A program made the translations under genes and the position numbers. 46,129 nt of DNA from a virus. The stretch's first letter is position 1; each line of letters begins with the position of its first letter. Under the pieces are notes generated by a model, which was not told where the DNA came from, made no database searches, and worked only from the letters and a program-made list of their open reading frames with translations. The stretch is taken from IMG/VR virus record IMGVR_UViG_3300036804_000175, positions 1-46,129 of that record. One strand, written 5' to 3'. Shown piece after piece: positions 1 through 46,129 of this stretch.

Positions 1-127
1 CGCTCCCTGATTTGCAGAAAATCCACAGGCGTTCCCTCCTTTGCGTGTTAGTACATTGCATTTTCGGTCATCCACTCCCCCATCTGATACCAGAGTTCTA
101 CCTGCCTCTGGTCTTTAGATGGATCTC
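1..127. repeat. Left copy of 127-bp contig-end repeat
   Basis: These 127 bases recur exactly at 46003-46129. A perfect repeat at the two ends of a contig, with one gene (start at 46028, equal to position 26) crossing it, is the mark of a circular assembly. The odd length of 127 fits a common assembly k-mer size, so it is probably not a biological terminal repeat. Confidence 0.9.
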
Positions 128-614
128 TAAGTGGGAACAAGCCACCGGTTCCGTGCGCGGTGTATGCCCGGTCGTTGAACCTGTTAAGAATTTTGATGAC
201 TTTCCCGGAGCGCTTTATATTGAATACACAAGCGCCATCAGTCCAGATGGACAACCTGAGATTTTGCAGGAACAAGCCGAACATCTCTTGCATGGGGCGG
301 TCTATCATGAACCCGCCACGATCAGCAAGTGCTATAAGAACTTCCAGAACACTTATGTCTGGGTACAGCAAAGCTGAGGTTTCCAGTGGTTCCAGGCCGC
401 CGCGGCTTATCTGGAAAGATTTCCGGAGTTCATCTCCATCAGCTATTCGGTTCTCATCATGCGGCACCAGCACTTTGAAAATCAGCTGGTGCATCTTCTC
501 CATCACGTAAGTGTAACTGTCCGGTGAGCCCTTTTGAGCGTTTGGGAATACTTGCGCGTGCAACCACTCAAAATATTCGGTGCCGATTCCTTCCATGTAG
601 GCTGGAGCAGACAT
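48..614 (-). CDS. Conserved phage protein of unknown function (188 aa)
   Basis: No function is known to me. The 188-residue protein is soluble, with no membrane segment or signal. Visible marks are YFEWL (residues 14-18), an acidic PHDENRIADGDELR block (51-64) and a C-terminal WYQM motif. From memory this pattern recurs as a hypothetical protein in siphophages that also carry DUF6353 membrane proteins. The ATG at 614 shares its A with the TAA of the upstream gene (TAATG), so the two are translationally coupled. It is the last gene of the 6.7-0.05 kb block; the polymerase fusion begins 21 bp further on across the circle. A virion or assembly role is possible but not shown. Confidence 0.8.
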   Translation of the reverse strand: MSAPAYMEGIGTEYFEWLHAQVFPNAQKGSPDSYTYVMEKMHQLIFKVLVPHDENRIADGDELRKSFQISRGGLEPLETSALLYPDISVLEVLIALADRGGFMIDRPMQEMFGLFLQNLRLSIWTDGACVFNIKRSGKVIKILNRFNDRAYTAHGTGGLFPLRDPSKDQRQVELWYQMGEWMTENAMY

Positions 615-1327
615 TATGTCTCCAGAGACGGGTCACCGTAGTTGAGAACCGCATCTGCATATGACCGTGCATCCAGAGTTATCTCGAAGTCGACCTCAAG
701 CTCCTCGTTCCGGACGTAGCAAATATGCGGATCTTCTGAGATACCACCAAAACTCAATGGTGTGAGTGCGCCGACGATCCTGGAGACCTCCAGAACAGGC
801 TCATCCTTGTCGTCAACGAGTGTTTTGTCGCCGGCGTAGTAAGTGATGGCAAGCTGCTGTGTGCCGACTGGTGATTCCGAGAAAACGGAACGTGAGATGC
901 GGTAAGGCTTCTTGGGCTTGTGCTGTGCGGCGTTTGCGAAAGCATTCTGCTGAACCAGCTGTTCCTCAACGAGCACAGCAGCAGCTGCGAGCTCCTCCTC
1001 ATCCGGAAAGCCCTCGAGGGGATGCGGTGTGGTTGCGGGTTCTCCAGGCGCGGTGTCTGGCACAGAATCGCCTCCCACGGTGGGTAGTTCTTCGTCTTCG
1101 ATGTGCACACCTGAGTGAGGGCCGATGAAAGGTGATCCAGTTTGAAGGAACGCCTTTGACTTGTCGTTGTAGTGGGATTTGATTCTGGCGACTTCTTCAT
1201 CAAGTCGCCGATCCATAGCGGCCCGAAGATGGTGACGGCAAAGAAGATAGCCAGCAGCACCACCAGCCAGCAGACCGCCGGCAGCACCACATATTGCGGA
1301 TTTTCCATCGAATTTCATTCCTTTCAT
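614..1327 (-). CDS. Membrane-anchored conserved phage protein (237 aa)
   Basis: Unknown function. Residues 12-30 form one glycine/alanine-rich membrane segment (ICGAAGGLLAGGAAGYLL), followed by a basic stretch, a helix containing KSHYNDKSKAF, an acidic proline-rich linker (about 75-125) and a C-terminal region near 135-237. The topology suggests an N-terminal anchor with a long hydrophilic domain. ATG at 1327 is used; a second in-frame ATG lies three codons in, but an AAAGGA would then touch the start. It lies 5 bp after the DUF6353 gene and overlaps the 188-aa gene by one base, so the three are one unit. Confidence 0.8.
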   Translation of the reverse strand: MKGMKFDGKSAICGAAGGLLAGGAAGYLLCRHHLRAAMDRRLDEEVARIKSHYNDKSKAFLQTGSPFIGPHSGVHIEDEELPTVGGDSVPDTAPGEPATTPHPLEGFPDEEELAAAAVLVEEQLVQQNAFANAAQHKPKKPYRISRSVFSESPVGTQQLAITYYAGDKTLVDDKDEPVLEVSRIVGALTPLSFGGISEDPHICYVRNEELEVDFEITLDARSYADAVLNYGDPSLET

Positions 1328-1332: not shown

Positions 1333-2196
1333 TCAGATCTTTATCGGACCGTCGACATTGAAATCAAGGAGAACCGTGTGCTCGATCCCGTTTATGAACG
1401 CACGGTTGCACTCATCCCCGATATTGTACAGGCCAAAATCCACATGGCCATCACCGTTGCCGTTGAGCCGCCAGCCAACGATCTGGCCGGCTTGGCTTCG
1501 CTCGAGACCCAACGCCTCATACACCTCATTCAGGAATATGAAGCCGTGCGCCTGGAGCCGGTCGTTTGCCCAGTTCTGCTGAGATCTGAGAAACAGCAGG
1601 TTGTACTCTGGCGTTCTGGTCCAGTTGACGCTGGCCTCGTCGAAGAACCTTGCGTAAGGCGATGGCATCACATCGTCGTAGTCGATGACTTCGCCTTCTG
1701 TCCCGTCGTCCGTGACGCCTTTGACGGTACGGGCTCCGCGGTACAGGATTTCTTCCTTCTCGTCACCCAGAACTTCGGCAACACGACGGCGGTATGCCTT
1801 GTAGCCAGCGTCGAGAGCCGTATAGGCCGCGACGAGACTTGTCTGGCGCTGCAGCATCAGACCGTGCGCAGAGATCACGCAGACGACAGAAGCTGAGCCT
1901 GTGACCAGGACCGGCCAGTAGAGTTCTGCCAGCTTGACACTGCTCTTCAGGTAGACCTTGGTAAGTGCCTTCTGCTTCTCCACCCTTGGGGCATCCTGAG
2001 TGGCGTTCTTGACTTCGACGACATCCTTGGAGATCTCGGGGAAGACATCAGCAGCCTTTGCTGTGGCTCTGATGGTGAGTGCAGTGGTAATCGCGAAGCC
2101 GGCTATCCCGGCGCCGGTCAGGATTGTTGGGGCGTTCCGCTGCAGGAAGAACTTGGATGACCCAAGGATCCGGCTTGAGAGCAGTGACGAATTCAT
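1333..2196 (-). CDS. DUF6353-like membrane protein, copy A (287 aa)
   Basis: Member of the phage DUF6353-type family, recognised by the N-terminal pattern NAPTILTGAGIAGFAITTAL followed by a conserved second hydrophobic segment (PVLVTGSASVVCVISAHGL). It has two predicted membrane helices and a C-terminal soluble domain with FIFLNEVYEALGL and GWRLNG. The frame is open 35 codons further upstream, but the ATG at 2196 is preceded by AAGGGA at good spacing and starts the family-like sequence. Its function is not known. A paralog lies at 4965-5750, so the genome carries two copies of this rare family. Confidence 0.85.
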   Translation of the reverse strand: MNSSLLSSRILGSSKFFLQRNAPTILTGAGIAGFAITTALTIRATAKAADVFPEISKDVVEVKNATQDAPRVEKQKALTKVYLKSSVKLAELYWPVLVTGSASVVCVISAHGLMLQRQTSLVAAYTALDAGYKAYRRRVAEVLGDEKEEILYRGARTVKGVTDDGTEGEVIDYDDVMPSPYARFFDEASVNWTRTPEYNLLFLRSQQNWANDRLQAHGFIFLNEVYEALGLERSQAGQIVGWRLNGNGDGHVDFGLYNIGDECNRAFINGIEHTVLLDFNVDGPIKI

Positions 2197-2222
2197 CAGT
2201 GTCCCTTGGTTGTGAGACTGGG

Positions 2223-2411
2223 TTACCAGATCTCTTCGACTTTCATAACTGTGTATTTCAGGTAAATATTCCGTGGTACGCCGCTTCCAGGCACACCACA
2301 CTCGCCCTCTATGTGGTCGACCAGAGTATCCTCTATTACTGAAACCGGTACTGGCTGAAGTCCCCCGTTGTACGAAACCTCAGCCTGCACGCGGATAAGA
2401 TACTCTTTCAT
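2223..2411 (-). CDS. Small hypothetical protein (62 aa)
   Basis: A 62-residue protein of unknown function, with no membrane segment. It has a slightly acidic middle with EDTLVDHIEGECG and a C-terminal KVEEIW. It sits between the lipoprotein gene (4 bp away) and DUF6353 copy A, in the same direction, which supports it being a real gene of the operon. I recognise no motif. Confidence 0.6.
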   Translation of the reverse strand: MKEYLIRVQAEVSYNGGLQPVPVSVIEDTLVDHIEGECGVPGSGVPRNIYLKYTVMKVEEIW

Positions 2412-2872: not shown

Positions 2873-3541
2873 CTAGGTGATTGGGTGGGTTCTCGGCAGA
2901 TTGAGAAGGTAACCTCCACGAATAGCCCTGATGCTGGCACTTCTGAGATCATCCCATCCCCATTTGTCATCTGTGAATTCGCCGGTCAGGCCGACCAGAT
3001 CATACAAATCGGAGACCGTCGCGACCTCGTACTGATTGATCAGATCTCTGAGCCGGTCGAGAACTTCTTCTGCTTCGGCTCTGCTCGCGATGATGATGTC
3101 ATCGAAATCGTGTGATGCTCTTGCTTGTCTGGAGAGTGGAGGACGCGGATCGCTCATGGGACTACCTGGAATATAGCGCTGCCCAGTGGCGTTCCTGCTG
3201 TAGTTCGTGTATGCACGATGGCCAGACCGGCTTGGTTTTGCGTCTCCAAAAAGAAGACGTTCTATTCCCTGGCTGACTGCATCGGAAACCATGTTTTTTG
3301 CTGCAGGAAGCAAAACCTCCATGATAACATATTCGCCGACACCTTGTGAATCATCGCTTATGAATTTGCTCAGAAAACGCCCAGCAGTGCTCTTCTTCCG
3401 CTGGACTACTTCTCCTTCGACAACTTTTTCTGGCTTGGCTCGCTCTGATTCCCTTTTTTGACCTTGCTTTGAGTTTGAAGGATAGTTTACGCGAGCTGTT
3501 GATTCGCGGCCACCTCCTTGGTCGACTTTCATTTCACTCAT
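2873..3541 (-). CDS. Conserved phage protein of unknown function (222 aa)
   Basis: The N-terminal third is low-complexity and basic. A helical region follows (GVGEYVIMEVLLPAAKNMV, about 77-95), then a C-terminal domain with FDDIIIASRAEAEEVLDRL and DDKWGWDDLRSASIR. From memory this combination is typical of a widespread phage family that travels with DUF6353 genes; its biochemical role is unknown. The amphipathic middle helix could associate with membrane. It is followed after 25 bp by the lipoprotein gene and preceded by about 100 bp of non-coding DNA. Confidence 0.8.
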   Translation of the reverse strand: MSEMKVDQGGGRESTARVNYPSNSKQGQKRESERAKPEKVVEGEVVQRKKSTAGRFLSKFISDDSQGVGEYVIMEVLLPAAKNMVSDAVSQGIERLLFGDAKPSRSGHRAYTNYSRNATGQRYIPGSPMSDPRPPLSRQARASHDFDDIIIASRAEAEEVLDRLRDLINQYEVATVSDLYDLVGLTGEFTDDKWGWDDLRSASIRAIRGGYLLNLPRTHPIT

Positions 3542-6393: not shown

Positions 6394-6425
6394 CTCTGCT
6401 CCGAGGTTCTCTTTTGGTCTGGTGT

Positions 6426-6728: not shown

Positions 6729-6751
6729 GGCATTCCTTTCGGTAGACTCTC

Positions 6752-6777
6752 ATTAGAGCCCATGTTTTTACCGCGAA
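6752..6777 (-). promoter_or_regulatory. Phage promoter-like motif, copy d
   Basis: Minus strand: TTCGCGG, 13-bp gap, TCTAAT, GAG. This is the most divergent copy, but gap and position are kept. It begins one base after the stop of the 89-aa gene and precedes the 100-aa gene. Confidence 0.65.
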
Positions 6778-8172: not shown

Positions 8173-8183
8173 ACCTCTCCGTT

Positions 8184-8999: not shown

Positions 9000-9289
9000 C
9001 AGCCCACAATCCTGAGATAGATGTTTCCGTCCACTGACCCGCCTACTGCATCAGAAGGAGGATCGGTACCCGCACTGATCCCCAGGTTGGCTCGTCCTGT
9101 GACTGTATCTGAGGCCCCTGTGCCACCGTTAGCAACAGGCCAGACAGTAGGAATTTTGCCCAGAACCTGTGCTATGAAGTCTCTTGTTCTGTTGATCTCT
9201 TGTGCGCCAAGTTTGACCTCACCGTCAGGATCCCCAGACCCAGGAACAAGTGGGTAACCCGCTGCTGCAGCATCATCGCCAATCGCCAT
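8999..9289 (-). CDS. Short tail-fibre-type protein (96 aa)
   Basis: The centre carries the tail-fibre signature VANGGTGASDTVTGRANLGI (about 51-70), found where fibres attach or trimerise. The N-terminus has a helix EINRTRDFIAQVLGKI. At 96 residues it is only a base-plate or fibre-connector fragment compared with complete fibres. It lies between the gp37-like and FN3 tail genes. Confidence 0.75.
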   Translation of the reverse strand: MAIGDDAAAAGYPLVPGSGDPDGEVKLGAQEINRTRDFIAQVLGKIPTVWPVANGGTGASDTVTGRANLGISAGTDPPSDAVGGSVDGNIYLRIVG

Positions 9290-18175: not shown

Positions 18176-18715
18176 CTACCCCCTGGATCCCATTGAAGCG
18201 CGTCGCTGTGCATTCAGTTCGCGATTTTGCTGAGCTAGATCACGAGGACTTAGCTTCTCTTTCGAGTTGTTTTTGATATTGCAAACCTTAATTAGCGTTA
18301 GCAAACGATTAAGATGCCAGTTTTCGCATTCAAAAGGAATACCCAGCGCTATCATCCAGTAGTAGATAAGTTCAGCAGTGACTATTTCACGGCTGTTTGT
18401 TTCTCTGCTGTTACTAAACCAGGTAGCGGTCATCTTGGCGTTGATGTACTTGTTAATTGCTTCATAGTTGCGTTCAGTGAACTTGGGGAAAACATGCTCC
18501 GGAAATTCGCTTCCAGTATGCATCATCCTGATATAATCCAGGACTTGCTCGTCAGTCTTCTGGGTTGCATCCAAGAATGGAATTTCCCACTTTGACTCCC
18601 ATTTTGACAGTGAGACCAGCGAATGCTCCAGCTCAAGCACAACTGAGACTGAAGCAACAAACTCGTTAGTCGCTTCATCAAAATCTTCAGCGGTGGTGAC
18701 AGACAGCCGGAGCAT
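18176..18715 (-). CDS. Tail assembly chaperone-like protein (179 aa)
   Basis: The pattern LELEHSLVSLSKWESKWEIP, REIVTAELIYYWMIALGIPF, ENWHLNRLLTLIKVCNIKN and C-terminal ELNAQRRASMGSRG is that of a conserved protein always found between tail-tube and tape-measure genes in Gram-positive siphophages; it is generally taken as the tail assembly chaperone. It is a single frame here; I found no slippery site or second frame as in the lambda G/GT pair. It follows the main tube gene by 15 bp. Confidence 0.8.
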   Translation of the reverse strand: MLRLSVTTAEDFDEATNEFVASVSVVLELEHSLVSLSKWESKWEIPFLDATQKTDEQVLDYIRMMHTGSEFPEHVFPKFTERNYEAINKYINAKMTATWFSNSRETNSREIVTAELIYYWMIALGIPFECENWHLNRLLTLIKVCNIKNNSKEKLSPRDLAQQNRELNAQRRASMGSRG

Positions 18716-18730
18716 TCGCTGGTCCTTTCT

Positions 18731-26229: not shown

Positions 26230-28257
26230 TTACAACGAGTTGGCCATACTCCGGAGAGTTGACACATAACTTCCACTGGCGTTGAATGATGGCGGTGTGG
26301 CCGTAGGATCAGTTCCCCACCAGGTCATGTAGAATTTCATTCCCCGGGCTTTGGCTTCATTGAAACCATCTAGGAAGAACTGATTGTATGCTGAAACAGT
26401 GTCTTGTGAATCGTTAGTTTCGATCACAGCAAGAACCGCATCTGGAACAACATTCAGGATGTTCTGGAACGCTACATCTGATGCTTGCGCGAAAGTTTGA
26501 GTGTTCTTTCCACCATAAATATCCAGGCCATACCAGTCAAGCCCAGGAGTAATCCATGGCGAATTTGGGTTCGGCACACTAGACGTGAAAAGAACTTGGC
26601 CAACGGTGTGTGTCGAGTTAACCTGATTTGCAAGTTGCTGCAGTTTCTGATGTGCAGCTACGAACTGATCAGCAGTACCATTGATTACAGCACGGAAATA
26701 GTTCGTGGTCAGATTTCCTTCATGGTAAACACATAGCGCGGTGTTGTCAGGCAATTTGGCGAGCCAGGATTTTGTCGGCCCATCATACGCACCGTTTATA
26801 AATCCCACAACGTCGTTTGGCCTGAAACTGATAATATAAACAGCTGCACCCGAAGCAACTTGCCCCGATGATATAGGCCATGTGATGGGAATTCCGGCAA
26901 CGCCTTCTGTCTCTTTGGCGTAAACACGGGCAACTGTGACATGGGGCAAAGTTGCCTTGTAAAGCGGAAAGTTCTGGCTGTCACACCCAAACAGAAGTGA
27001 GGTGTCTGTTCCGGAAACACCGGCCAGTTTCATCTTCTTAAGTTTGACAGAGCCGAATCCACTAACTTCTTCTGAGCCAAACACGGAAAGGCTCATCTTT
27101 GCCAAGTCAACACTTCCGGTGCCTGTGATAGTTTGCTTAGCGGAACCAGCCAAGCGCATCTTCTTCAGCGCAACGCTGCCGTTTGCCTTGAAAAGGCCAC
27201 TTGGAAGGTCTGTGATTGGATACCAAACCCCGCCAACTGAAACCTTTGGCAGCGCTGGCGTCCACATCCCGTTGATCATGGCTTTAACCGTGCAACTTTG
27301 CCAAATGCCGTTAAGACGCACTGACACTGGGGTAAGCTTGGCTCCAGCAACAATCATCTTTTTTACTTGAACGGATCCTGAGCCAGTTGCCCCGACTTTT
27401 CCAGTACCTGCGAAGCGCGGTTTCTTCAGACTGATACTGCCCGCAGCTGAATCAGTTTCTTTTCCAGATCCAGATAGGCCCATCTTCTTCAGGTTAACGA
27501 AACCTGTAAGAACAAGCTTCGCGCCTCCAGATCCGGAAGCCGATATCTTTTTCAGGCTAACTGAGCCTGTACCCGCGTCGAGGGAAGGGCCAAGATAGCC
27601 TGTATCTGAAACTCCAAGATCATCAAGAAAGAACAAAGCGCTGGCGACAGCAACGGCACAAACACCGAAACGGACAACGGCTATCGGGCCAGTGGTATTC
27701 AGTGTTGCCACCGAAGTTTTTGTGTCATCTGCTGTTTGAGAATCCGCAGTGTTGAACAACTTAAACTCGAGTTGCCCAGTTGTGGCAGATCCAGTTACAT
27801 AGCCAGCAATACGAATCCACTTGCCTGTGGCGATTGGCGTCGTAGCAGTAATCTGCACTGTGTTGGCTGCATCTGTGAAAGTAAGAATGCCAATTGAGCT
27901 TAGGTTAAGTCTTGCACACTGGCCACCGGCCGACACAGTAGGCTGGAACAGAGTTTGGGTACTCGATGGAAGCGACGGAAAGAACGCGTAAATCCGAAAG
28001 AATATCTGGGTGATGCTTCCACCAAGCTGACCAGACCAGGCAACAAACGACAACTCGCCAGTAGCGTCTGTGGTGAATTTGGCTGACAAAGGAGTACGCG
28101 ATGGGTGGTTGTTGCTAAACGCTACATTAGCCCCAGGATTGGTTGTAATAATATTGAAGAAGGACCCTGATGCGCCGCCGGTGTTTCCGGATGAGCCCGC
28201 AGTCAGTGCAGTGCTGTCAGTGCCGCCTTCAAACGTATTGAATATGGTTAGAGCCAT
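26230..28257 (-). CDS. Tail/receptor-binding protein with LamG-like, repeat and hydrolase-like domains (675 aa)
   Basis: Domain order: LamG/jelly-roll-like N-terminus (1-220); seven repeats containing LKKM, spaced exactly 21 residues (Leu at 235, 256, 277, Val at 298, then Leu at 364, 385, 406) and split by three 13-residue Trp repeats (Trp 319, 332, 345); and a C-terminal domain (420-675) with a TIM-barrel glycosidase look, including YHEGN (Glu513), LDWYGLDIYGG, AVIETND (Glu613) and MTWWGTD. It probably binds and cuts a host surface polysaccharide. The ribosome site lies in a hairpin (28258-28299). Its place among head genes is unusual. Confidence 0.75.
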   Translation of the reverse strand: MALTIFNTFEGGTDSTALTAGSSGNTGGASGSFFNIITTNPGANVAFSNNHPSRTPLSAKFTTDATGELSFVAWSGQLGGSITQIFFRIYAFFPSLPSSTQTLFQPTVSAGGQCARLNLSSIGILTFTDAANTVQITATTPIATGKWIRIAGYVTGSATTGQLEFKLFNTADSQTADDTKTSVATLNTTGPIAVVRFGVCAVAVASALFFLDDLGVSDTGYLGPSLDAGTGSVSLKKISASGSGGAKLVLTGFVNLKKMGLSGSGKETDSAAGSISLKKPRFAGTGKVGATGSGSVQVKKMIVAGAKLTPVSVRLNGIWQSCTVKAMINGMWTPALPKVSVGGVWYPITDLPSGLFKANGSVALKKMRLAGSAKQTITGTGSVDLAKMSLSVFGSEEVSGFGSVKLKKMKLAGVSGTDTSLLFGCDSQNFPLYKATLPHVTVARVYAKETEGVAGIPITWPISSGQVASGAAVYIISFRPNDVVGFINGAYDGPTKSWLAKLPDNTALCVYHEGNLTTNYFRAVINGTADQFVAAHQKLQQLANQVNSTHTVGQVLFTSSVPNPNSPWITPGLDWYGLDIYGGKNTQTFAQASDVAFQNILNVVPDAVLAVIETNDSQDTVSAYNQFFLDGFNEAKARGMKFYMTWWGTDPTATPPSFNASGSYVSTLRSMANSL

Positions 28258-31538: not shown

Positions 31539-31799
31539 CTATGCTGCCTCTGCTGGCTTGCTTGCCTTCTTGTACATTCCATTGATGTTCATTTGACAGA
31601 TCTCGTCAATGGCTTGCTCGATAGATGAATCGATCTCCGTGTCTGGCAAATCAAGAGATACTTTTGAAATTCGTGCTAGTAGGCCAGGTGTGTCGTATCC
31701 TGCAGCACGATCCCATGAGTACCACTCATCGTAGTTCGTGAATGGATTCCATGGATTGTCAACAGTAGTTAGCATGTGCTCGACGTCGTCAACCATCAT
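31539..31799 (-). CDS. Small conserved partner downstream of phage RNA polymerase (86 aa)
   Basis: Acidic small protein with VEHMLTTVDNPWNPFTNYDE, WYSWDRAAGYDTPGLLARI and IEQAIDEICQMNINGMYKK. I recall this pattern directly after YonO-like polymerase genes in other phages. Its ATG overlaps the TGA of the polymerase gene, so the two are made together. It may be an accessory subunit of the polymerase; that is inference from conserved context. Confidence 0.8.
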   Translation of the reverse strand: MMVDDVEHMLTTVDNPWNPFTNYDEWYSWDRAAGYDTPGLLARISKVSLDLPDTEIDSSIEQAIDEICQMNINGMYKKASKPAEAA

Positions 31800-34456
31800 C
31801 CTCCTTCACGATGTAGTGCAGCGTTGAGTGTACTCACAGGTACGCCCAGCGAGTCCGCTATCTCTGCCTGGGTGTAACCAGATGCCAGCCTTGCTTTAGC
31901 TATAGCTAGCTTGGTAGAGGTCATCACTACCGAAGACCTAGGTGTGGCTAGTTCTCTAACACGATCAGCGTTAGCATTGTCTAGTATCTGACTGAGCTTG
32001 CTGCCACTGATGGCTCCTGCTTGGATCGCCTTCCACTCGGTATCAGTAATGCTAACCTGATTCTTCTTAGCGCCTACTCGTTCACGGGCAGCATTCAGCG
32101 CTTGGCCTTTGATCTTCTTAAGATCGGCGGCATCCATGTTGGGGTTATCCTGGCGCCTTGCTGTGACGATGGCGTTCGCCAGCAATTGTGCTTGACGTTC
32201 AAGAGGTTTATTCTTCAATGCTATGTTTAGTTTAGCATTGAGAGAGTTGACCTCAGAACGATACGTTTGTTTTGCGGTGGGGGAGTATTTCATAGATCCC
32301 GTTGACAGCGCTGCCTTTCGTGCTTCGTTTGCCAAAGATTTCAAAGCATTCGAATGATCAGCATAGATGTTCTCTATAGGCATGCCGCTTGACAAGGACC
32401 TAGCATCTTTGGCTTCAGCGAGTTTAGTGGATGATACGGTACGTACAATAGTACGGCCTTTAGCATCCTTGAACGACTCGCCTGTTTCTTCATAGACCTT
32501 TTGACCAGTCTTTGGATCTATAGGTCCACCTTTAGATGCAGATCTTAGTCTGCGATCAGGCACACGAACTTCAGAACTGGCTCTTGAAACAATGGTTGAT
32601 GCACCAGCCAGACGGCCTGTGGATCCACGGCCCTGATACTTCTCTTTAAGTGATGCAATTCCATTGTCGATGTAAGACTGCTTATAGTTTAGATTGTGCT
32701 TTTCGGCATCAATCACAACCATAGAATGACGGACTGCTCGAGCAAGTTCGTCAGGTCTGGCGCCCTTAATCGACATGTCTGTAATCAGGTTCGACACATC
32801 GCCCATCTGCTGTTGCTTTGCGCGTGCTGAGATAGGCTTCATGCCTTCATAGCCCGGATAACTTTCTTTGGGCTCGAAGCTCTTCAGTCCCGCGAGTGGT
32901 GCAGAAGTCTTGACTTCACGTTTGTTATTCGGTATAACGAGTACCGTATCGCCGTCAAAATCTGCGCCAGACAAACGTTCGGCCACTTTAGGATGAATGC
33001 CTACGGCATCTATCGCGTTGCCAAGAGCGGCCCTCGCATCGGCGTGTTTATTGTTTACCGTAACTTCCGGGATCTCGAACGGTCCGCCATGAGGAAAGCG
33101 AACTAGCGCTACCTTCTCACCATTACGGTAATTAGGCGCATAGACTTCGCCTTCTTTAAGTGTTTCGATTGGGAGAATTACATGAGTACCTTGTCGTGGC
33201 AGAGCAGCTGCTTTCAGATGCACAGATGCACTATCGGCACTATCAGCGAACTTTTCCAGAAGTGCCTTTCTCACCACTGGATTTGTGAGGCGTGTTATCT
33301 CGCTATACTCATCTCTGCGTGAGGCAAGAGCAAGATCCAGTTGGCGCCTCGCAAGGGCTGTGCTTTGTTTTGAAAGAACTTGACTAGACAGACTGCGACT
33401 CCAGTCTCTCCAGTCACCTTCTTCATTAACAATGTTCATTGGTGAAAGACGGCGCTTACCAGAAGAGTCCGTATAATGCCTCTGACGAACTGTGGCCCCA
33501 AACGGGTTGTCTTCTTCTTTTTGCGGCTTCATAGCGTCGAGCTTGTTGCCAGTGTTTCGCTTATTTGTGTTAAACATAAGATCTGTCCCAGCAGGCAGAT
33601 CATTCTTGTACATCGCCATACCTTTGAGGTAATGTGTACCGTCTACGGCGATGCGAACTTGTGCGTATCTCGATGCACCAAGTGAGATGTCATGAACACC
33701 GGGGCGCACGTAGATGACTCCATCGGCTTTGGCACCGCCGTCTTCGGCGTAGCGAACACCAATACGGCTAGAATTGACGTTGCGAGGAGGCTGGATACCG
33801 AGATATGTATGGCCGCCATCTTCGCTATATGCGGCAACCGACTTGATTCGTTCTGGGTTCTTGACGATGTCGACATACTTCGTTCCTGGTGGTGCAAGAA
33901 CCTTGATTGTGGTCTTTTTGCCCGTTCCGAGCTGATCGACCTGGACATTATGAACTTCAAAACCTTCTTCGCGAAGAACAGCGACAGATGTCGCAAGCTT
34001 AGTTGCAGTAATACCCAGATGGTTTTCTGTGCCTGCGCCTATGTCAAGGTATTTATCTTTGCCGACTTTGTCACGAAGCAGGTTAGATGTTGTTATTAGA
34101 ACATCTTTCCTGTCCGCGGTTGAGGGATTAAGCAATGCACGAACAGAGGACTCATTGATTCCACCTAGTCGTTCGCCAATAGCGGCATTTGACATTCCTT
34201 TTGCTTTTAGTCGAACAGCTTGCGCCGTATCAGCAGCACGAGTTTCGTTCTTAGCTATTGCTCTGGCAGCACGAAGAGCAGTTGTTGAAGTACTGAAACC
34301 AGCAGCGATCTGTGTTTCAGAGAGACCTTTTGATTTCAGGTCTTCAACATAACTCAGAAAGTTGCGGCTTTGCTCTACGCTTTGCCCTGATCCCCAGGGA
34401 TAACGGCCTGACCGGCGAAGAACGCCGTAGTGGTAAAGCTCTGCAGTATCGGTCAC
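31796..34456 (-). CDS. YonO-like phage-encoded RNA polymerase (886 aa)
   Basis: Probable single-chain DNA-directed RNA polymerase of the YonO/QDE-1-like double-psi beta-barrel class. The key site is GADFDGDTVLVIP (497-509), with the three metal-binding Asp residues 499, 501 and 503. Flanking family motifs: RFPHGGPFEIPEV (453-465) and SNLITDMSIKGARPDELARA (555-574) followed by RHSMVVIDAEKH. The N-terminus has two helix-turn-helix-like segments (about 37-70 and 78-110) and the C-terminus a third (YTQAEIADSLGVPVSTLNAA). It probably transcribes part of the phage genome. Enzyme activity is inferred from motifs. Confidence 0.8.
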   Translation of the reverse strand: MTDTAELYHYGVLRRSGRYPWGSGQSVEQSRNFLSYVEDLKSKGLSETQIAAGFSTSTTALRAARAIAKNETRAADTAQAVRLKAKGMSNAAIGERLGGINESSVRALLNPSTADRKDVLITTSNLLRDKVGKDKYLDIGAGTENHLGITATKLATSVAVLREEGFEVHNVQVDQLGTGKKTTIKVLAPPGTKYVDIVKNPERIKSVAAYSEDGGHTYLGIQPPRNVNSSRIGVRYAEDGGAKADGVIYVRPGVHDISLGASRYAQVRIAVDGTHYLKGMAMYKNDLPAGTDLMFNTNKRNTGNKLDAMKPQKEEDNPFGATVRQRHYTDSSGKRRLSPMNIVNEEGDWRDWSRSLSSQVLSKQSTALARRQLDLALASRRDEYSEITRLTNPVVRKALLEKFADSADSASVHLKAAALPRQGTHVILPIETLKEGEVYAPNYRNGEKVALVRFPHGGPFEIPEVTVNNKHADARAALGNAIDAVGIHPKVAERLSGADFDGDTVLVIPNNKREVKTSAPLAGLKSFEPKESYPGYEGMKPISARAKQQQMGDVSNLITDMSIKGARPDELARAVRHSMVVIDAEKHNLNYKQSYIDNGIASLKEKYQGRGSTGRLAGASTIVSRASSEVRVPDRRLRSASKGGPIDPKTGQKVYEETGESFKDAKGRTIVRTVSSTKLAEAKDARSLSSGMPIENIYADHSNALKSLANEARKAALSTGSMKYSPTAKQTYRSEVNSLNAKLNIALKNKPLERQAQLLANAIVTARRQDNPNMDAADLKKIKGQALNAARERVGAKKNQVSITDTEWKAIQAGAISGSKLSQILDNANADRVRELATPRSSVVMTSTKLAIAKARLASGYTQAEIADSLGVPVSTLNAALHREGG

Positions 34457-35743: not shown

Positions 35744-36895
35744 CTATTGTGAGCCAGACAACTGTTTTAGTGCATTTGTCTCATTGAACTCACGTTTGCT
35801 AGAAAGCGCGGAAAAAAGCGCACAGTCTATCCCGCTCTGGGACCGAAACACGTAGTAATACAGGTCTATGTATGGGGTGTTAAGGCGGTCAATGCGTCCT
35901 TTCGCTTGTTCTGTCGCTCTGTACGAGTAGTTCATGGAGTAGAACACGATAGTATCCGTGGTTATGCAGTTCCACCCTTCAGCCCCGGCAGCATACTGAA
36001 CGAGGTAGACCCACTCATCTCCATCTGGAACAGGTTCATGATTGTGGCCATTCCACTCAGCCACCTTCACGTAGTCCAGAAGGTCCCGGAGCATTTCGAG
36101 CTCGTAGTCGAAGTTGTAGAAGATGATCATCCGCGGGTGAGTGATCATAAGATTCTTGATGTTGTCTATCCGTGACGGGTCCAGATTGACAACCCGGCGC
36201 AGGAGACTGAACAACTCACTCACATTGCGGATGGGCCGGCCTTCGAGATAGTTCCATCTTCTCTTCCACACGGTGCTGTACAGTTCCCGGTTATACTCTG
36301 CGAACACGTCAATTGTATGGCGGACTGTTGTTCTCTTGTACGGCATCTCCACAAGTATGCTCCTAAGATGCTCAGTCAGTTTGCGTGTCTCCAGAAACCT
36401 CTCCACTTTCGGGAACTTTGCCCATCTGCTGAAGACAACGTGCTCTCTGCAGAATTCGGTTCTTGTGGAGTAAAAGCCATTCGCCAAGAACACTGGGATA
36501 TAGTCCATCCAGGTGTCCCCCGGTGTAGCACTCAGGAGAATCCACTCGTTCTTTCTGGTGACCTTCAGGAACGCTTTCACCCATATGCCAGATCCCACCA
36601 CTCTCTGCTCGTCGAAGATGAAAAACGCGTCTTCCACATCTTCATAGTTTATCAAGTTGTTCCATGAGTCGACGATTGGCTCGACTCCATACAGCAATGC
36701 TTCTGCCTGCCAGTCCCCGCTGTCACGTTTTTTAGATGTCGTGATGACATATAGTTTCACCCAGGGTGCAAGAGTAACATAGTACGCCATAGCGGTTCTT
36801 GACTTACCTGTCCCGACGCCTCCCTTCAGGATCTTCCCGTTACTGAGCTCGTCGACTGCCTTCTGCTGGTGTGGCATAAGTGGTGGATTGATCAT
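35744..36895 (-). CDS. SF2 DNA helicase (383 aa)
   Basis: Superfamily 2 helicase with the two RecA-like lobes: Walker A GGVGTGKS (25-32), motif Ia near KLYVITTSKKRD, motif II DEQR (95-98), motif III SAT (122-124) and motif VI QAKGRIDR (330-337). The motif II DEQR and the SNF2-type order match phage helicases of the DEAD/H group. At 383 residues it is compact. ATG at 36895 shares its A with the TGA of the zinc-ribbon gene (TGATG). Likely acts in phage replication or recombination. Confidence 0.9.
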   Translation of the reverse strand: MINPPLMPHQQKAVDELSNGKILKGGVGTGKSRTAMAYYVTLAPWVKLYVITTSKKRDSGDWQAEALLYGVEPIVDSWNNLINYEDVEDAFFIFDEQRVVGSGIWVKAFLKVTRKNEWILLSATPGDTWMDYIPVFLANGFYSTRTEFCREHVVFSRWAKFPKVERFLETRKLTEHLRSILVEMPYKRTTVRHTIDVFAEYNRELYSTVWKRRWNYLEGRPIRNVSELFSLLRRVVNLDPSRIDNIKNLMITHPRMIIFYNFDYELEMLRDLLDYVKVAEWNGHNHEPVPDGDEWVYLVQYAAGAEGWNCITTDTIVFYSMNYSYRATEQAKGRIDRLNTPYIDLYYYVFRSQSGIDCALFSALSSKREFNETNALKQLSGSQ

Positions 36896-39575: not shown

Positions 39576-40103
39576 TTATCCCTCACTTCCGCGTTTGCGC
39601 CACTCGCTTGCCCACATGAAGTCCATGCCGGCGAGCTCTGCGCATTGCTTATCTGACTCCATGTCTCCCACCATCAGGGCGAGATAAGACGGGTAACGTT
39701 CGCCGTATACCGGCTCCATGTTAATGACTGCAGCAACTATGAGCCCTGGCGACGGTTTTCTGCACCAGCACTTAACCATAGGAGGAGCAGGTGCTGATGG
39801 GTGGTGAGGACACCACACGATCACATCGATCAGGTTCCCGGTGAGCTCGTTGACATGCTCCAGCTTTTCCTTGACTTCTGCTGAAGTAGTAAATCCCAGA
39901 GCAATTCCACCCTGATTGCTCACTGCCAAGATCCGGCCGTTACCTGCTTTCCATTCCAGAAGCAGGTTAATAACGCCAGGAAACAGCTCAACATCGCTAG
40001 CTTTGTTGACAAACTGGCCATCCTTGTTCCCCAGTTTGATTAAAGTACCGTCGACGTCGACCACCAGCAGACGCGTTTCTTTCATCTCTCTCATGTCGTT
40101 CAC
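39576..40103 (-). CDS. HAD-family phosphatase, GmhB-like (175 aa)
   Basis: HAD-type hydrolase that removes phosphate from a small substrate or nucleic acid end. Motif I is DVDGT with Asp16 and Asp18; motif II SNQGG with Ser62; the RKPSPG segment (about 115-120) gives the motif III Lys; motif IV is GDMESD (146-151). WCPHH and CWC (98-114) form a loop with Cys98, His100, Cys112 and Cys114, like the zinc loop of the GmhB subgroup. The start is GTG at 40103, overlapping the previous stop (GTGA). Substrate unknown; phage HAD enzymes of this kind may mend nucleic acid ends. Confidence 0.8.
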   Translation of the reverse strand: MNDMREMKETRLLVVDVDGTLIKLGNKDGQFVNKASDVELFPGVINLLLEWKAGNGRILAVSNQGGIALGFTTSAEVKEKLEHVNELTGNLIDVIVWCPHHPSAPAPPMVKCWCRKPSPGLIVAAVINMEPVYGERYPSYLALMVGDMESDKQCAELAGMDFMWASEWRKRGSEG

Positions 40104-40751: not shown

Positions 40752-40941
40752 CTTCTTCCAGACACCTTCGGGCCACGGATATTCGAGCTCCACGCATGCC
40801 ATCATTTTGATCCAGCCACATTTCGCACTCAGCAAGTTTGAGAAGTGCCTGCTCCTTATGAATGTCTGATTTGAATGTTTTGCCGATGTCTCTCCGAAGT
40901 TTGGTGAAATGAAGTACGAAGTGTTCCCGGGTTGAACTCAT
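40735..40941 (-). CDS. Small helical protein, EAEMWL family paralog (68 aa)
   Basis: Begins MSSTREHFVLHFTKLRRDIG and continues HKEQALLKLAECEMWLDQND. The LLKLAECEMWL helix matches the TKLEEAEMWL helix of the 61-aa protein, so the two are paralogs. ATG at 40941 shares its A with the stop of the ssDNA-binding-like gene (TGATG). May be a second Acb2/Tad1-like protein; unproven. Confidence 0.6.
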   Translation of the reverse strand: MSSTREHFVLHFTKLRRDIGKTFKSDIHKEQALLKLAECEMWLDQNDGMRGARISVARRCLEEDVRPV

Positions 40942-41453
40942 CACTCCTCCTCGTCGGGCTCGTCGTGTGACATTACCGCAACGGCGGCTGAGTCCGGCAC
41001 ATCGAGGTACTTCATCTCGAGTGCATCTTCCCGGATTGTCACATAGATTGACTTCAGGTAGGCCTTTACTCCTTCTCGTCCGTTCACCTCCCATTCGTAA
41101 GGCCGCACGATCATGTCGACGTTCTCGATGTCCGCCCAGTCAAGCAAGGACACCATACTCTCATCGAGCGGTGTCTTACCCCTGCTGGTGATCAGGACTA
41201 TCCGCGGTGGGTTCTTGCCGAAGTGGACACTCACCTCGAGCCGTGGCTGCGGTGTCTCACCCTCATCGCGCGGCTGAAGGTACTTGACGTTCCAGCCGTC
41301 TTTCAGCATGAGCTCGGCTTCTTCATCTTCGAGCAGCACGTTGAAGTTGCGCTGCCCCTTGGCATTGAACCGGCCTTCCTCACCGGAGAAGTTCCGGAAG
41401 AGAATGCGCCGTCCTTCCAGGACTACGGGCTGGAGCCTTGAACCGGTGCCCAA
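40941..41453 (-). CDS. Single-stranded DNA-binding-like protein (170 aa)
   Basis: Beta-rich protein with RRILFRNFSGEEGRFNAKGQ, LMLKDGWNVKYLQPRDEGE, FGKNPPRIVLITSRGKTPLD, VDMIVRPYEWEVNGREG and an acidic C-terminal tail ending EPDEEE. The pattern is that of a conserved phage protein often taken as the ssDNA-binding protein; an acidic tail is usual for such proteins as it recruits replication partners. The start appears to be TTG at 41453 within the preceding gene. Position beside replication genes agrees. Confidence 0.7.
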   Translation of the reverse strand: MGTGSRLQPVVLEGRRILFRNFSGEEGRFNAKGQRNFNVLLEDEEAELMLKDGWNVKYLQPRDEGETPQPRLEVSVHFGKNPPRIVLITSRGKTPLDESMVSLLDWADIENVDMIVRPYEWEVNGREGVKAYLKSIYVTIREDALEMKYLDVPDSAAVAVMSHDEPDEEE

Positions 41454-42323: not shown

Positions 42324-45300
42324 TCACGCTCTGAATTGTTCGGCGTCTCCGAACTTAGAGATATTGGTGATGGCGGAATCCACGAGAGCTCTGAAGTAAT
42401 CCAGATTGACTGTGTTTTCTTGCCCGAGATCCCGGACGACTACTGCTTCTTTCCAGAAGTATCCTTTGGCTCCCGATGCAGAATGGAACACGCCCTCCTT
42501 GCCACGGAGCAGAACACCTCCTCCAGTCCCTTCATTGACCGGGACAAAGCTTCCAGCGCGGCCAACAAAGTGTGGATCGCCGTCTCCGAAATCCAGATAA
42601 AGGCTCGCTGAAGTGACTGTACGAGTTTCACAGTAATCCCTGAATTCTATCGGTTCGTTACTGAACAGGGTTTTAAAAACGTATGGATGCTGAAACTGTG
42701 CACCCGTGGTTGCCCATGATCCGTCTTCCTTCTTGGCTACATAAACTGCATCATTCACAAGACAGAATTTCTGGTAAGTAACTTCATGCTCGAAGTCATA
42801 ACCATACTTCTGGCCGAAATTGATAATGAATTCCACAATTTCCGGTGTCGCATCTGGTACCTTGATGGAGTCAGTCTTGATGTGAATGACCCTGAAACCT
42901 TGTTCCTGAATAGCCTGCTTGAGGTCTATCATGAACAAAGCGCCACGTTTGGCTACAATATTGTCTTTGTTCCGGACGTCCCGGAATGCGTTGGGGAAGC
43001 TAGCCGATGTGAGACCATAAACAATGTTCAGGATAATCTTCAGAGCATAGGATAGTGCTTTTGCATCTCCCTCACTACCAAGGTATGGAACCAGGGCGCC
43101 ACGGAGCATTCGCCTAGCTGCGTCGTAATCATGATGCTTGATTGCAACACGGGCGGATTTGAGATCAGAATAATTCTTCGTATAAGGGCCAAACAAAGAC
43201 AATATTTCAATTGTTGTCGGGTGCATAGAGGCAACATCGAGCACCGCGACGTCAGTATACATGCCGGGTTCGGCATAGACATAACCTCCTTCCCCGGTTG
43301 TTTCATCTTTGTATGTGCTGGTTCCGGCTTCATAATGATAGCCCGGGAACTCTTTAGACAAGTCTGTGTAAACAAATTTATCCTGAGGATTACGGTCATC
43401 ACCAAATACAATTTTAGCTGTGTGACGCTGAGTTGTGTCATTGACTGACAAGCCGCTAAGCTCTGCAAGAATCTGTCTTGCAACGTAATCTTGCTTTCTG
43501 TCGTCAAACACCTGCTCAGTGGTTACGACATCGTTGGCACAATAGCTGGTAACTTCTTCCCAGAGCTCTTCTGGTACGGGCTCATACCAGGGATGGCTGA
43601 GCTCTTTGTGATTTAGTCCTAGCTCGATCTGGAACCACTTGAGCGACTTCTTGACAGTGGAAAAATCCCAAATGTCAGCATACGACAAGTTATACGCGTC
43701 GCCGAACATGCTGTGCTTTTCGCCTTCTATAATTCGCTGGCTAAGCTGAAACAGTTCTTGCTCGTTGTAGCCCATTATCCGGGCATAGAGAATATGATTA
43801 TCGTAACGGCGGTTGTTGAAGCCAACCAGTTTGAACTTAGTCAGCTCCTCAACTTCGGCACTGCCAGGATTAATCATCTTGGCAACCTGGGCGTCACCCT
43901 GATACTTCCAGCAGACCACAAACAGATTAGGAAAGACTTCCACATCGTAAAACACCAAACGGTCATCTGCAGGTGCTACGGGCTCTGGTGTGACGGGCAC
44001 GTCGTCCGATGCAAACTTCATGCCCATGACTCGTTTAACGCAATAAACCGCCTGATTGGTGGATCCGTTGGCAAACGCAAGGATCCGGCCCCGCATGTCT
44101 GTCACGTCGTAAGTCATGCCTGAACGCCAGGCATCGTCAAGAATCTTCTCGATGAAGTCAATGCTCGGCTTAGTTCCCGGATGTATTTCTTTCCGGAGAT
44201 TTCTCTGAATGAGACCTCTCAGAGATTTCTCGTTTTGCATGGTGTCTGAATCGATCATACGCCTCTCCTTAAACGGCAAGCCACTGTTCAAAGTCGCGAT
44301 GGGGACATCGTTGCAAGTGGTTAGCCGGCGCCGCAATGAAGCATCATCCTTGAAGGTTTTAACTTCAATTCCCGGGCTGTAGCTGTGGCTCAGACCCGAA
44401 ACATCACCGTCGTACATGTAATGCAGGTGGATGCCAGCGCCACTTTGACTGTATTCGGCATAGGTCGCGGGCCACAAGCTGGCTGCCTCCAGATTCAGGA
44501 CAATGCTCTTGTGACCTTCTTCATCCCGCAAATCGAAGTCAATGACAATCTGCTGGAAGTCCAGTTTAACAAAGTGCAGATGTGACGTGTCAAGATCTGA
44601 CAGTACAGTCTTCACTTTAGCCCATGGAACTCCTGGCTTTCCGCTGTCGGTAGCATATTGAGCCGGCTGACTGGAAAAAAGCTCATCGAATAGCGAATCT
44701 GTAAGCTCCATTGCAAGTGACGGTGATGGCTGCGGCGGTGCCGCTTGCACTCCAAGTTTGTCAACTTTAAACCCAGTGAACAGATTTGTCACCTGAACAC
44801 CATCAACCCGGCCACGTTCTGAAAAATGAGTGAAGTAGTTCCGGAGCTCATCCCTGAACTTGCCGAGGTTTAGGCGCCACTCGTAGCCGCCTTCATCACA
44901 GAACGCCTTGTACAAGCCCCAGGCCTGCTTGAGGGTTGTTCCGTCCTGATTCCGGAAAAGCTCGTATTGCTCCGTCAGGTAGTTGTAGAACATGTCAGTC
45001 CGGATAATCATGTCTGTTGGCCGGTATGACGAATAGTAATTTGGTCCCAGTGCCCGGTATACCTGAAGGCAGTGATAGGCAATGGCTCCTAGCTCGAAAT
45101 TGATTCCATGCTTGGCCGCTTCATAATCGCTTGACAGCAGAGTCTTGCCAGTTGGGTGAATATCAATCAGTCGCCGGATAATGCCTGATTTGGCATCGGT
45201 GATTTTAACCGATTGATTCGTTCCGATAAAGAGAAGCGCATTCACACGCCCAGTGTAAGGCGCCTTGTACTTCTCGTTGATGATGATCTCCTCGTGAGAG

Positions 45301-46028
45301 ACTATCGAGTTGAGACGGGTGTTGTCATCTATCTTAGACAGGTCACCGTCGTGTTGGATTGCCACAAGCGGGTTGGTCTTGAACGACTCGGTAGCAAAAG
45401 CGTTAGTTGTGCCAGTCAGGGCTTTCGCGTCGAAGGTTGCTGTGTACCCTTCAAACAGTCTGGCAAGAATATTAAGAAACGTGGATTTGCCCGTTCCCGC
45501 TTCGCCATACAGAACGAAGAACTTTTGCACGTCTTTTGAGTTCGCGGCGACTACGGCACCGATTGCCCACTCGAGTTTCTCCCGCTCATGCGGAGCGTAG
45601 AGTGTGCTCATCAACCGATCATACGCTTCTATTGATCCTTCTTTGAGCGAATACGGAAGCCGTCTGGAACTGTGATCTTCCTTTTTAGCCGGCGTATCTG
45701 AGAACGCCAGCGTACCATCCAGTTGCTCAAACGAACTGGGCAAGTTCGTGCAGTAACTTTTAAAGTCACGCCACGCATTGCTTTTGAAACTGCTCAGGCT
45801 GCGGACCGTCGTAGGCCCGTCGATTTTCTCAGCCCGGGCATAAAGCGCAGCATCGACGAGACGCTGAACCGTGTATTCATCAGTAGACCACAGCCCAGCG
45901 CCCTCGTCCCATACCGCATAGAAGGAGCCGCCACGGACCAGCAGGTCTTGCGACTTACGGACGACGAAGTCTGGGTAAAGCTCAACTCCCGACTTTGTCT
46001 GCCGCTCCCTGATTTGCAGAAAATCCAC
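42324..46028 (-). CDS. SF3 helicase / primase-polymerase / family B DNA polymerase fusion (1234 aa)
   Basis: One chain carries three replication modules. Helicase (about 1-425): D5/SF3-type with Walker A GEAGTGKST (175-183). Archaeo-eukaryotic primase-like (about 465-640): DFD (497-499), SGAGIH (529-534), EVKTF (555-559). DNA polymerase (about 690-1234): exonuclease Asp695/Glu697, Asp743, YxxxD at 829-833; polymerase motif A DVASMHP (Asp931), motif B KxxxNxxYG (997-1005), motif C KTDS (Asp1053) with Lys in place of the usual first Asp. The start is GTG at 46028 with AAAGGAGG upstream; because the contig is circular the start is also at position 26. Confidence 0.85.
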   Translation of the reverse strand: MDFLQIRERQTKSGVELYPDFVVRKSQDLLVRGGSFYAVWDEGAGLWSTDEYTVQRLVDAALYARAEKIDGPTTVRSLSSFKSNAWRDFKSYCTNLPSSFEQLDGTLAFSDTPAKKEDHSSRRLPYSLKEGSIEAYDRLMSTLYAPHEREKLEWAIGAVVAANSKDVQKFFVLYGEAGTGKSTFLNILARLFEGYTATFDAKALTGTTNAFATESFKTNPLVAIQHDGDLSKIDDNTRLNSIVSHEEIIINEKYKAPYTGRVNALLFIGTNQSVKITDAKSGIIRRLIDIHPTGKTLLSSDYEAAKHGINFELGAIAYHCLQVYRALGPNYYSSYRPTDMIIRTDMFYNYLTEQYELFRNQDGTTLKQAWGLYKAFCDEGGYEWRLNLGKFRDELRNYFTHFSERGRVDGVQVTNLFTGFKVDKLGVQAAPPQPSPSLAMELTDSLFDELFSSQPAQYATDSGKPGVPWAKVKTVLSDLDTSHLHFVKLDFQQIVIDFDLRDEEGHKSIVLNLEAASLWPATYAEYSQSGAGIHLHYMYDGDVSGLSHSYSPGIEVKTFKDDASLRRRLTTCNDVPIATLNSGLPFKERRMIDSDTMQNEKSLRGLIQRNLRKEIHPGTKPSIDFIEKILDDAWRSGMTYDVTDMRGRILAFANGSTNQAVYCVKRVMGMKFASDDVPVTPEPVAPADDRLVFYDVEVFPNLFVVCWKYQGDAQVAKMINPGSAEVEELTKFKLVGFNNRRYDNHILYARIMGYNEQELFQLSQRIIEGEKHSMFGDAYNLSYADIWDFSTVKKSLKWFQIELGLNHKELSHPWYEPVPEELWEEVTSYCANDVVTTEQVFDDRKQDYVARQILAELSGLSVNDTTQRHTAKIVFGDDRNPQDKFVYTDLSKEFPGYHYEAGTSTYKDETTGEGGYVYAEPGMYTDVAVLDVASMHPTTIEILSLFGPYTKNYSDLKSARVAIKHHDYDAARRMLRGALVPYLGSEGDAKALSYALKIILNIVYGLTSASFPNAFRDVRNKDNIVAKRGALFMIDLKQAIQEQGFRVIHIKTDSIKVPDATPEIVEFIINFGQKYGYDFEHEVTYQKFCLVNDAVYVAKKEDGSWATTGAQFQHPYVFKTLFSNEPIEFRDYCETRTVTSASLYLDFGDGDPHFVGRAGSFVPVNEGTGGGVLLRGKEGVFHSASGAKGYFWKEAVVVRDLGQENTVNLDYFRALVDSAITNISKFGDAEQFRA

Positions 46029-46129
46029 AGGCGTTCCCTCCTTTGCGTGTTAGTACATTGCATTTTCGGTCATCCACTCCCCCATCTGATACCAGAGTTC
46101 TACCTGCCTCTGGTCTTTAGATGGATCTC
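46003..46129. repeat. Right copy of 127-bp contig-end repeat
   Basis: Exact copy of 1-127. It contains the start codon and ribosome site of the polymerase fusion. Remove one copy when closing the circle; the genome is then 46,002 bp. Confidence 0.9.

Follow-up and report, generated by a model that had tools for sequence, protein, structure and literature searches.

A GP55-like HelPrimPolB protein with a motif C lysine as the probable replicase of a phage

The gene at 42324..46028 on the minus strand raises the question whether one polypeptide can unwind, prime and copy DNA, although motif C of its polymerase part has a lysine where the first aspartate is usual. We studied it within the window, i.e., the whole analysed stretch of 46,129 nucleotides. 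Starting with GTG at 46028 and ending with a stop codon at 42326-42324, it encodes a HelPrimPolB-type replicase of 1234 residues, the length and interval given by an earlier sequence-only reading; a Shine-Dalgarno-like AAGGAGG, read directly from the sequence, lies 8 nt ahead of the start (46037..46043, minus strand). The frame is uninterrupted, while the plus strand of the same interval is full of stops. Profile phrog_4210 covers the protein end to end (residues 1-1232, E=0), and 396 phage records match it in tblastn, 252 of them at a coverage of at least 80% and the best with 57% identity. The open reading frame is therefore far beyond chance, and homology along the whole protein length rules out a chance or artefact frame.

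Structure models bear out that helicase, AEP primase, exonuclease and family B polymerase lie in one protein, with the N- to C-terminal order SF3 helicase, AEP fold, four-helix domain, 3'-5' exonuclease and family B polymerase (all on the minus strand). The SF3/D5-type helicase region (residues ~40-422, 44763..45911) matches PF19263 (E=9.9e-15) and TIGR01613 (E=7.8e-14) and carries Walker A GKST at 180-183, D227, N271 and R285/R286, for which the motif role names are putative. The exonuclease subdomain (residues ~692-860, 43449..43955) shows D695, E697, D743, Y829 and D833. It is followed by palm, fingers and thumb of the polymerase (residues ~861-1234, 42327..43448) with D931 in motif A, K997 and Y1004-G1005 in motif B and K1051-T-D1053-S in motif C. 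The polymerase region matches NF004421 (DNA polymerase II, E=1.2e-9) and PDB 3k57 (E=5.5e-6). Exonuclease and polymerase together span ~545 residues (690-1234), in accordance with the short module of about 540 residues noted before. In a near-full-length model of 1195 residues, whose pTM of 0.52 makes the relative placement of its domains unreliable, the helicase superposes on the SaPI5 primase-helicase 7ola with Z 23.3 over 333 residues, and the polymerase on KOD polymerase with Z 17.2 over 442 residues and on E. coli Pol II with Z 15.7. A Pfam search of the replicase itself gave neither an AEP nor a PolB match.

The AEP/PriS-like primase domain (residues ~442-589, 44262..44705; D497, D499, H534, E555) is modelled with a pLDDT of 92.2 and finds the NrS-1 primase-polymerase in Foldseek (E 4.4e-5). 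Structural comparison gives Z 9.8 for NrS-1 (142 residues, 3.5 A) and Z 6.8 for pRN1 ORF904. This confident model and the NrS-1 match rule out that the AEP fold is absent, the outcome named beforehand as fatal to the proposal. Its boundaries differ from those first proposed: residues 465-640 cut across both the AEP domain and a separate four-helix domain at ~600-668 (44025..44231). The helices of the latter are seen in the model, and its Y640 and F652 correspond to Y655 and F667 of GP55 from Lactococcus phage 1706, making it the equivalent of the aHD of that protein.

To assess conservation, we aligned the window protein with 168 loci, 148 rows of which are below 90% identity; 9 of 178 matching loci lacked one complete ORF and had been dropped, because of truncation at a contig end in 7 cases, a split in 1 and a frameshift in 1. 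In all 148 non-redundant relatives, K181, N271, R285 and R286 of the helicase, D497, D499, H534 and E555 of the AEP domain, D695, E697, D743, Y829 and D833 of the exonuclease and D931, K997, Y1004 and D1053 of the polymerase are invariant, while D227 is kept in 144/148. The helicase Walker type of the window protein, GKST/QHDGD, occurs in 123 of 149 rows.

Motif C reads HIKTDS (residues 1049-1054, 42867..42884, minus strand), i.e., KTDS at 1051-1054 with K1051 for the first Asp, just as first reported from the sequence. All 169 aligned members, the window protein included, show [HI/HV]KTDS; 73 of them were contributed by a scan with HIKTDS among its two patterns, and the other 96 are independent of it. 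The lysine is a family signature, neither decay nor a peculiarity of the window protein. Stand-alone phage relatives have Asn at this position in 96 of 99 aligned rows and none has a readable Asp (the remaining 3 comprise two with T in truncated stretches and one gap); the crAss-group rows show Asn in 15/16 with 1 gapped. Primer-independent PolBs (piPolBs) read KTDG in motif C. As to an earlier publication of the KTDS-versus-NTDG contrast, literature text searches on piPolBs with KTD and on motif C of primer-independent polymerases found nothing.

For GP55, Zhang et al. 2025 (PMC12205980) purified the protein and found helicase, RNA-primase, polymerase and 3'-5' exonuclease activities in vitro. 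Its helicase depends on UTP/dTTP; its AEP made RNA primers, with no significant product from dNTPs alone; its DNA polymerase activity is due solely to PolB, and primers were extended at 1.25 nM enzyme (PMC12205980). It was obtained intact as a dimer, its primase and polymerase work in trans, and deletion of PolB damaged the helicase (PMC12205980). Mutation of K189, D509, Y655, F667, D712, E714 and D949 removed an activity (PMC12205980); for D509A this is read also from its role there as the mutant that lacks primase. All seven residues are identical in the window protein (K181, D499, Y640, F652, D695, E697 and D931, respectively), to which GP55 aligns in BLASTP with 36% identity over 1309 alignment columns (E=0).

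The genes around the replicase (all on the minus strand) are conserved as well. Once the record is closed, a 188-aa gene (phrog_4678, 48..614) lies directly upstream (160/182 loci), and further conserved upstream neighbours encode 237 aa (phrog_4695, 614..1327; 113/182), 322 aa (DUF6353/phrog_2152, 1333..2301; 144/182) and 222 aa (phrog_4079, 2873..3541; 131/182). Downstream follow a gene for a phage single-stranded-DNA-binding/annealing protein (40941..41453; PF24083, E=3.1e-66; phrog_4787; 160/182 loci) and a second helicase gene (phrog_62, 35744..36895; E=8.7e-53; 127/182). A PDB sequence search with the 886-aa RNA polymerase-like neighbour gave no match.

With a probability of about 95%, the gene product is a HelPrimPolB-type replicase belonging to the phage itself, i.e., a GP55-like four-in-one enzyme working as follows. 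The N-terminal SF3 helicase would load on single-stranded DNA and open the duplex using a nucleotide triphosphate. The AEP domain, aided by the adjacent four-helix domain, would lay a short RNA primer, which the C-terminal family B polymerase would extend with DNA while the exonuclease proofreads. Polymerase catalysis would be due to Asp931 of motif A and Asp1053 of motif C, with Lys1051 for the missing first Asp as a fixed property of the family. Analogy with GP55 suggests the same four activities in the window protein, as well as a probable dimer in which one subunit is able to prime for the other; the single-stranded-DNA-binding protein encoded downstream may assist. The earlier proposal that unwinding, priming and copying could be combined in a single polypeptide is supported by the modelled folds, the catalytic residues invariant in 148/148 relatives and the activity in vitro of GP55.

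The lysine in motif C could also mean that one module has decayed, i.e., that the protein has either an impaired polymerase behind its helicase-primase or a vestigial AEP in front of its polymerase, while another enzyme copies the genome. The passages of PMC7544198 on archaeal B2 polymerases, which have substituted active sites, state that these were once considered inactive. However, invariance of the remaining catalytic residues together with a lysine fixed in 169/169 members does not look like decay. GP55 shares this lysine and extends primers at nanomolar concentration, stand-alone relatives lack the Asp too, and PMC7544198, where it treats piPolBs without this Asp, calls them highly active. 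Also, no second DNA polymerase is seen among the 28 window proteins scanned, which are a part of all ORFs. We thus consider decay highly improbable. That the AEP is mainly a DNA-synthesising primase-polymerase in the style of NrS-1 or pRN1, with PolB in a secondary role in repair or proofreading, is very unlikely: its best structural match, NrS-1, does make DNA de novo (PMC12205980), but the GP55 AEP makes RNA primers without significant product from dNTPs alone, DNA synthesis there belongs to PolB, and an aHD-type domain replaces the helix-bundle domain of NrS-1.

It is scarcely credible that the replicase is a polyprotein cut or dissociated in vivo into a helicase-primase and a polymerase part. 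This idea draws on Bifidobacterium phage BitterVaud1, which carries the replicase as two genes (959 aa and 368 aa) separated by one of 213 aa, and on the trans action of the GP55 primase and polymerase. Yet the interruption in BitterVaud1 falls within the polymerase module, separating exonuclease from palm just before motif A, and not at the primase-polymerase boundary; moreover, GP55 was purified intact and its helicase suffered from the loss of PolB. What the split implies is that at least one lineage can do without a physical connection just before motif A. For the split gene, an explanation by a group I intron or another RNA element known to Rfam was rejected, as a search at the gathering threshold gave 0 matches in loci L019 and L173. 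Neither Pfam nor NCBIfam gave a match for the 213-aa insert, which finds only itself among 50,697 phage records.

Beyond the four-in-one replicase reading, one may speculate that the invariant HIKTDSxK block is a purposeful active-site change, in which Lys1051, together with His1049 and Lys1056, takes the place of the Asn seen in stand-alone relatives and serves to grip very short RNA primers from the fused primase, and that in most of the family (the GKST/QHDGD type, with the window protein) the helicase is powered by a nucleotide other than the UTP/dTTP of GP55. We regard this combined proposal as unlikely.

HelPrimPolB replicases are common: a scan of viral contigs gave at least 579 relatives, and 129 lie in contigs of bacterial and archaeal genomes. 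Among plasmids, 4 records matched the replicase query, all with a coverage below 80%. Whole-genome amplification would benefit from a self-contained enzyme for priming, unwinding and copying. The fixed residues of the 148-member alignment are targets for testing the primer handover from a primase to a polymerase without the first motif C aspartate, and the split version of BitterVaud1 lets one test on a natural example which links between domains are required.

Among known systems, the crAss-like and stand-alone PolBs (Listeria P35, Enterococcus EF3, Weissella PWc) have a homologous exonuclease and polymerase (22-23% identity) that also lost the first motif C Asp, but they read NTDG/NTDA, have no fused helicase or primase and branch separately. 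In the tree, built from 114 of 117 rows after removal of 3 truncated ones, a split with support 1.0 sets 18 HelPrimPolB rows apart from the remaining 96. The KTDS and fused domains of the window protein rule out a crAss-like identity. Of four stand-alone PolBs searched with Pfam, Listeria P35 alone had PolB matches, both below the cut-off. The NrS-1 primase-polymerase and pRN1 ORF904, which we take to lack a PolB module, resemble the window protein in AEP fold and fused SF3-type helicase (Z 18.1 for the C-terminal region of NrS-1), but their AEP precedes the helicase, so that the order helicase-AEP-PolB rules out this type of PrimPol. Their accessory domains differ, too, in that the helical one of NrS-1 is unlike the GP55-type aHD (PMC12205980). 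With piPolBs, as far as PMC7544198 describes them, the window protein has in common only that motif C lacks its first Asp.

Gp62 of Gordonia phage Tanis ('DNA primase/polymerase') is 57% identical to the window protein end to end, and 'DNA primase/polymerase' loci of Gordonia, Arthrobacter, Streptomyces and Rhodococcus phages have counterparts of the four upstream genes and of the downstream single-stranded-DNA-binding protein gene, all in the same order; the genomes among the records listed are mostly larger (e.g., Tanis with 59,727 bp). GP55 has helicase, PriS-like domain, aHD and PolB in the same order as the window protein, and its motif C HVKTDS contains the same KTDS in an enzyme that polymerises DNA. 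Within the family it is nevertheless an outlier at some distance, being identical to the window protein at 38.6% of the aligned positions, with other Lactococcus phages as its nearest relatives in the analysed set, and is longer by 83 residues in all (1317 vs. 1234 aa). Since its Walker A/B motifs are GKGT/DADSD instead of GKST/QHDGD, nucleotide use by the helicase may differ. The architecture was named HelPrimPolB by Kazlauskas et al. 2020, whose passages on it (PMC7544198) describe a phage-encoded SF3 helicase and PrimPol fused N-terminal to PolB with a divergent motif C, place it in the EpsilonN-like PolB clade with a divergent KxY motif and cite Kazlauskas et al. 2016 as having first shown it. 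The window protein has this very fusion, with no difference found, and a divergent motif C (KTDS) when compared by that description rather than by logo letters. Hence the novelty of the architecture suggested by the sequence-only reading does not hold, the fusion having been named in 2020 (PMC7544198) and a homologue characterised in 2025 (PMC12205980); the window protein is a further member of a known, biochemically characterised enzyme family.

The replicase is encoded on the minus strand by an ORF of 1234 aa that reads from a GTG start at 46028 to the stop codon at 42326-42324, with the sequence AAGGAGG 8 nt ahead of the start. The sequence-only reading had given this location and length correctly, but the strand has to be corrected to minus, i.e., the plus strand over this stretch is closed by many stops. 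It had also proposed that helicase, AEP primase and family B DNA polymerase (PolB) reside in one protein, on which domain searches, structure models and residue conservation agree.

With regard to sequence searches, the PHROGs family phrog_4210 ('DNA polymerase') covers the whole protein (E=0), while the Pfam match is limited to the helicase part (PF19263, E=9.9e-15). NCBIfam yielded two kinds of match under the curated cut-off, namely to the phage/plasmid primase C-terminal helicase (E=7.8e-14) and, for residues 901-1057, to E. coli DNA polymerase II models (best E=1.2e-9). The latter enzyme was also found at E=5.5e-6 when an 11-member profile was compared with solved structures.

The expected AEP fold is recovered in a structure model of residues 430-690 (83 sequences, pLDDT 92.2, pTM 0.66). 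All ten Foldseek matches of this model with E<0.001 are AEP primase-polymerases, with phage NrS-1, plasmid pRN1 and Sulfolobus islandicus as sources, and a VIA-align superposition to NrS-1 (Z 9.8, 142 residues, 3.5 A) covers residues about 442-589. The model shows four helices at about 600-668, whose equivalents are named aHD in GP55, the homologue from Lactococcus phage 1706. For a model of residues 40-1234 (38 sequences, pLDDT 84.9, pTM 0.52), the top PDB matches in Foldseek are family B polymerases (E about 1e-16). In its first part, the model resembles the SaPI5 primase-helicase (Z 23.3) as well as poxvirus D5/E5, African swine fever virus PrimPol and the C-terminal region of NrS-1, and in its last part KOD polymerase (Z 17.2), Pol alpha (16.5) and E. 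coli Pol II (15.7).

Relatives are numerous. A tblastn search of 50,697 phage records gave a match in 396, with at least 80% query coverage in 252, all below 60% identity and chiefly from Arthrobacter, Gordonia and Streptomyces phages. Scans of viral and genome contigs added at least 579 and at least 129 relatives, respectively, of which 80 each were retained, many of those in genome contigs coming from Clostridia. A match was present at 178 loci; in 169 of them the replicase is one full ORF, and the alignment comprises the window and 168 loci. Among its 148 rows under 90% identity, the following residues are identical throughout: K181, N271, R285 and R286 of the helicase, D497, D499, H534 and E555 of the primase, D695, E697, D743, Y829 and D833 of the exonuclease, and D931, K997, Y1004, G1005, H1049, K1051, T1052, D1053, S1054 and K1056 of the polymerase. 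That is, the catalytic residues of every module are fixed, and no degenerate module is apparent in the alignment. The proposal of one polypeptide that could unwind, prime and copy is essentially right.

A few loci deserve mention. The Bifidobacterium phage BitterVaud1 (locus positions 4001-8631) has a natural split of the replicase, with a 959-aa gene for helicase, primase and exonuclease and a 368-aa gene for the polymerase from motif A onward; the unrelated 213-aa gene between them had no other match in phage records. On a contig of an uncultured Bacillales MAG (about 8890-9040), the replicase lies in two overlapping frames broken just past motif A, which looks like a single frameshift, either real or an assembly error. 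Another member (1511-5257, 57% identity to that of the window) sits on a contig of 11 kb that was assigned to an archaeal bin (Candidatus Bathyarchaeum) but seems likelier to be a mis-binned bacteriophage contig than an archaeal virus.

The lysine noted in motif C (HIKTDS, residues 1049-1054) is a family trait: [HI/HV]KTDS occurs in 169/169 aligned members, 96 of which stem from searches independent of the motif and 73 from a scan with the motif as one of two patterns. The stand-alone relatives inspected first, i.e., unfused phage PolBs, read NTDG or NTDA (4/4), and Asn holds the first position in 96 of 99 relatives of crAss-like, Weissella, Listeria and Enterococcus polymerases; three sequences have a gap or are truncated at this site. 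In a FastTree phylogeny of 114 polymerase modules, the 18 rows of the fused family form one side of a bipartition (support 1.0). On the simplest reading, the first Asp would already have been lost in the common stock and Lys fixed with the fusion.

We also surveyed the neighbourhood in 182 loci, many with short flanks and five being stand-alone polymerase or primase loci. Four upstream genes of unknown function, on the minus strand at 48-614 (phrog_4678), 614-1327 (phrog_4695), 1333-2301 (DUF6353/phrog_2152) and 2873-3541 (phrog_4079), were matched in 160, 113, 144 and 131 loci, respectively. Both in actinobacteriophages and in Clostridia genome contigs, they immediately precede the replicase in an unchanged order, suggestive of a replication-linked cassette. 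In the window, this adjacency appears when the record is closed at a perfect 127-base direct repeat of its ends (1-127 = 46003-46129), such that the minus-strand genes from 48-614 onward precede the replicase gene. Of the latter, the first 26 bases fall within this repeat, which explains their extra match at 1-26. With these ends, the record probably represents a complete genome of about 46.0 kb; a repeat of exactly this length is also left on circular contigs by assemblers run with k=127.

Downstream, an ssDNA-binding/annealing protein (160/182) and a second helicase (127/182) are common; an exonuclease gene was matched in 46/182 and an RNA polymerase-like gene near the replicase in 45/182. 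In the window, the latter encodes an 886-aa phrog_4291 protein (31796-34456, minus), which is labelled 'RNA-dependent RNA polymerase', carries an ADFDGD motif and a C-terminal helix-turn-helix and had no match among PDB sequences. It looks like a single-subunit RNA polymerase, presumably of the YonO/QDE-1 type. Further minus-strand features are a 677-aa head protease-major capsid fusion (20249-22282, phrog_3270; Peptidase_S78-like N-terminus, Phage_capsid-like C-terminus), a 675-aa ORF near terminase and lysis genes (26230-28257) without match in Pfam or PHROG, and a 175-aa HAD-type protein (39576-40103; polynucleotide kinase 3'-phosphatase PF08645, E=9.3e-6), possibly a nucleic-acid end-repair enzyme. 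An inverted repeat with 20-nt arms (95% complementary, 71 nt apart) lies at 18614-18724 near one end of the ORF 18176-18715.

The architecture, the motif C divergence and, for GP55, the activities are already published. Kazlauskas et al. 2020 (PMC7544198) name the group, to which the window protein belongs, HelPrimPolB, describe it as having SF3 helicase and PrimPol domains attached on the N-terminal side of the polymerase, crediting their own 2016 paper, and call its motif C and KxY profoundly different; they also note high activity for primer-independent PolBs in which the first Asp of motif C is missing. Zhang et al. 2025 (PMC12205980) purified GP55, a dimer that primes in trans, and showed UTP/dTTP-dependent unwinding, synthesis of RNA primers with preference for 5'-CCAAC-3', primer extension and 3'-5' exonuclease activity; the words 'lysine' and 'motif C' are absent from its main text (term search). 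According to the same paper, phage 1706 has an ssDNA-binding protein and otherwise only a putative RNA-type helicase for replication. The ssDNA-binding gene shared with our loci fits a replisome of one enzyme and an ssDNA-binding protein. GP55 reads HVKTDS as well, so that an efficient polymerase can carry this Lys. The helicase motifs differ, i.e., GKGT and DADSD in GP55 compared to GKST and QHDGD in the window protein (the latter pair in 123/149 rows, window counted), such that we do not assume the UTP/dTTP preference for the window enzyme. Both proteins align end to end in BLASTP with 36% identity, where K189, D509, Y655, F667, D712, E714 and D949 of GP55 correspond to K181, D499, Y640, F652, D695, E697 and D931.
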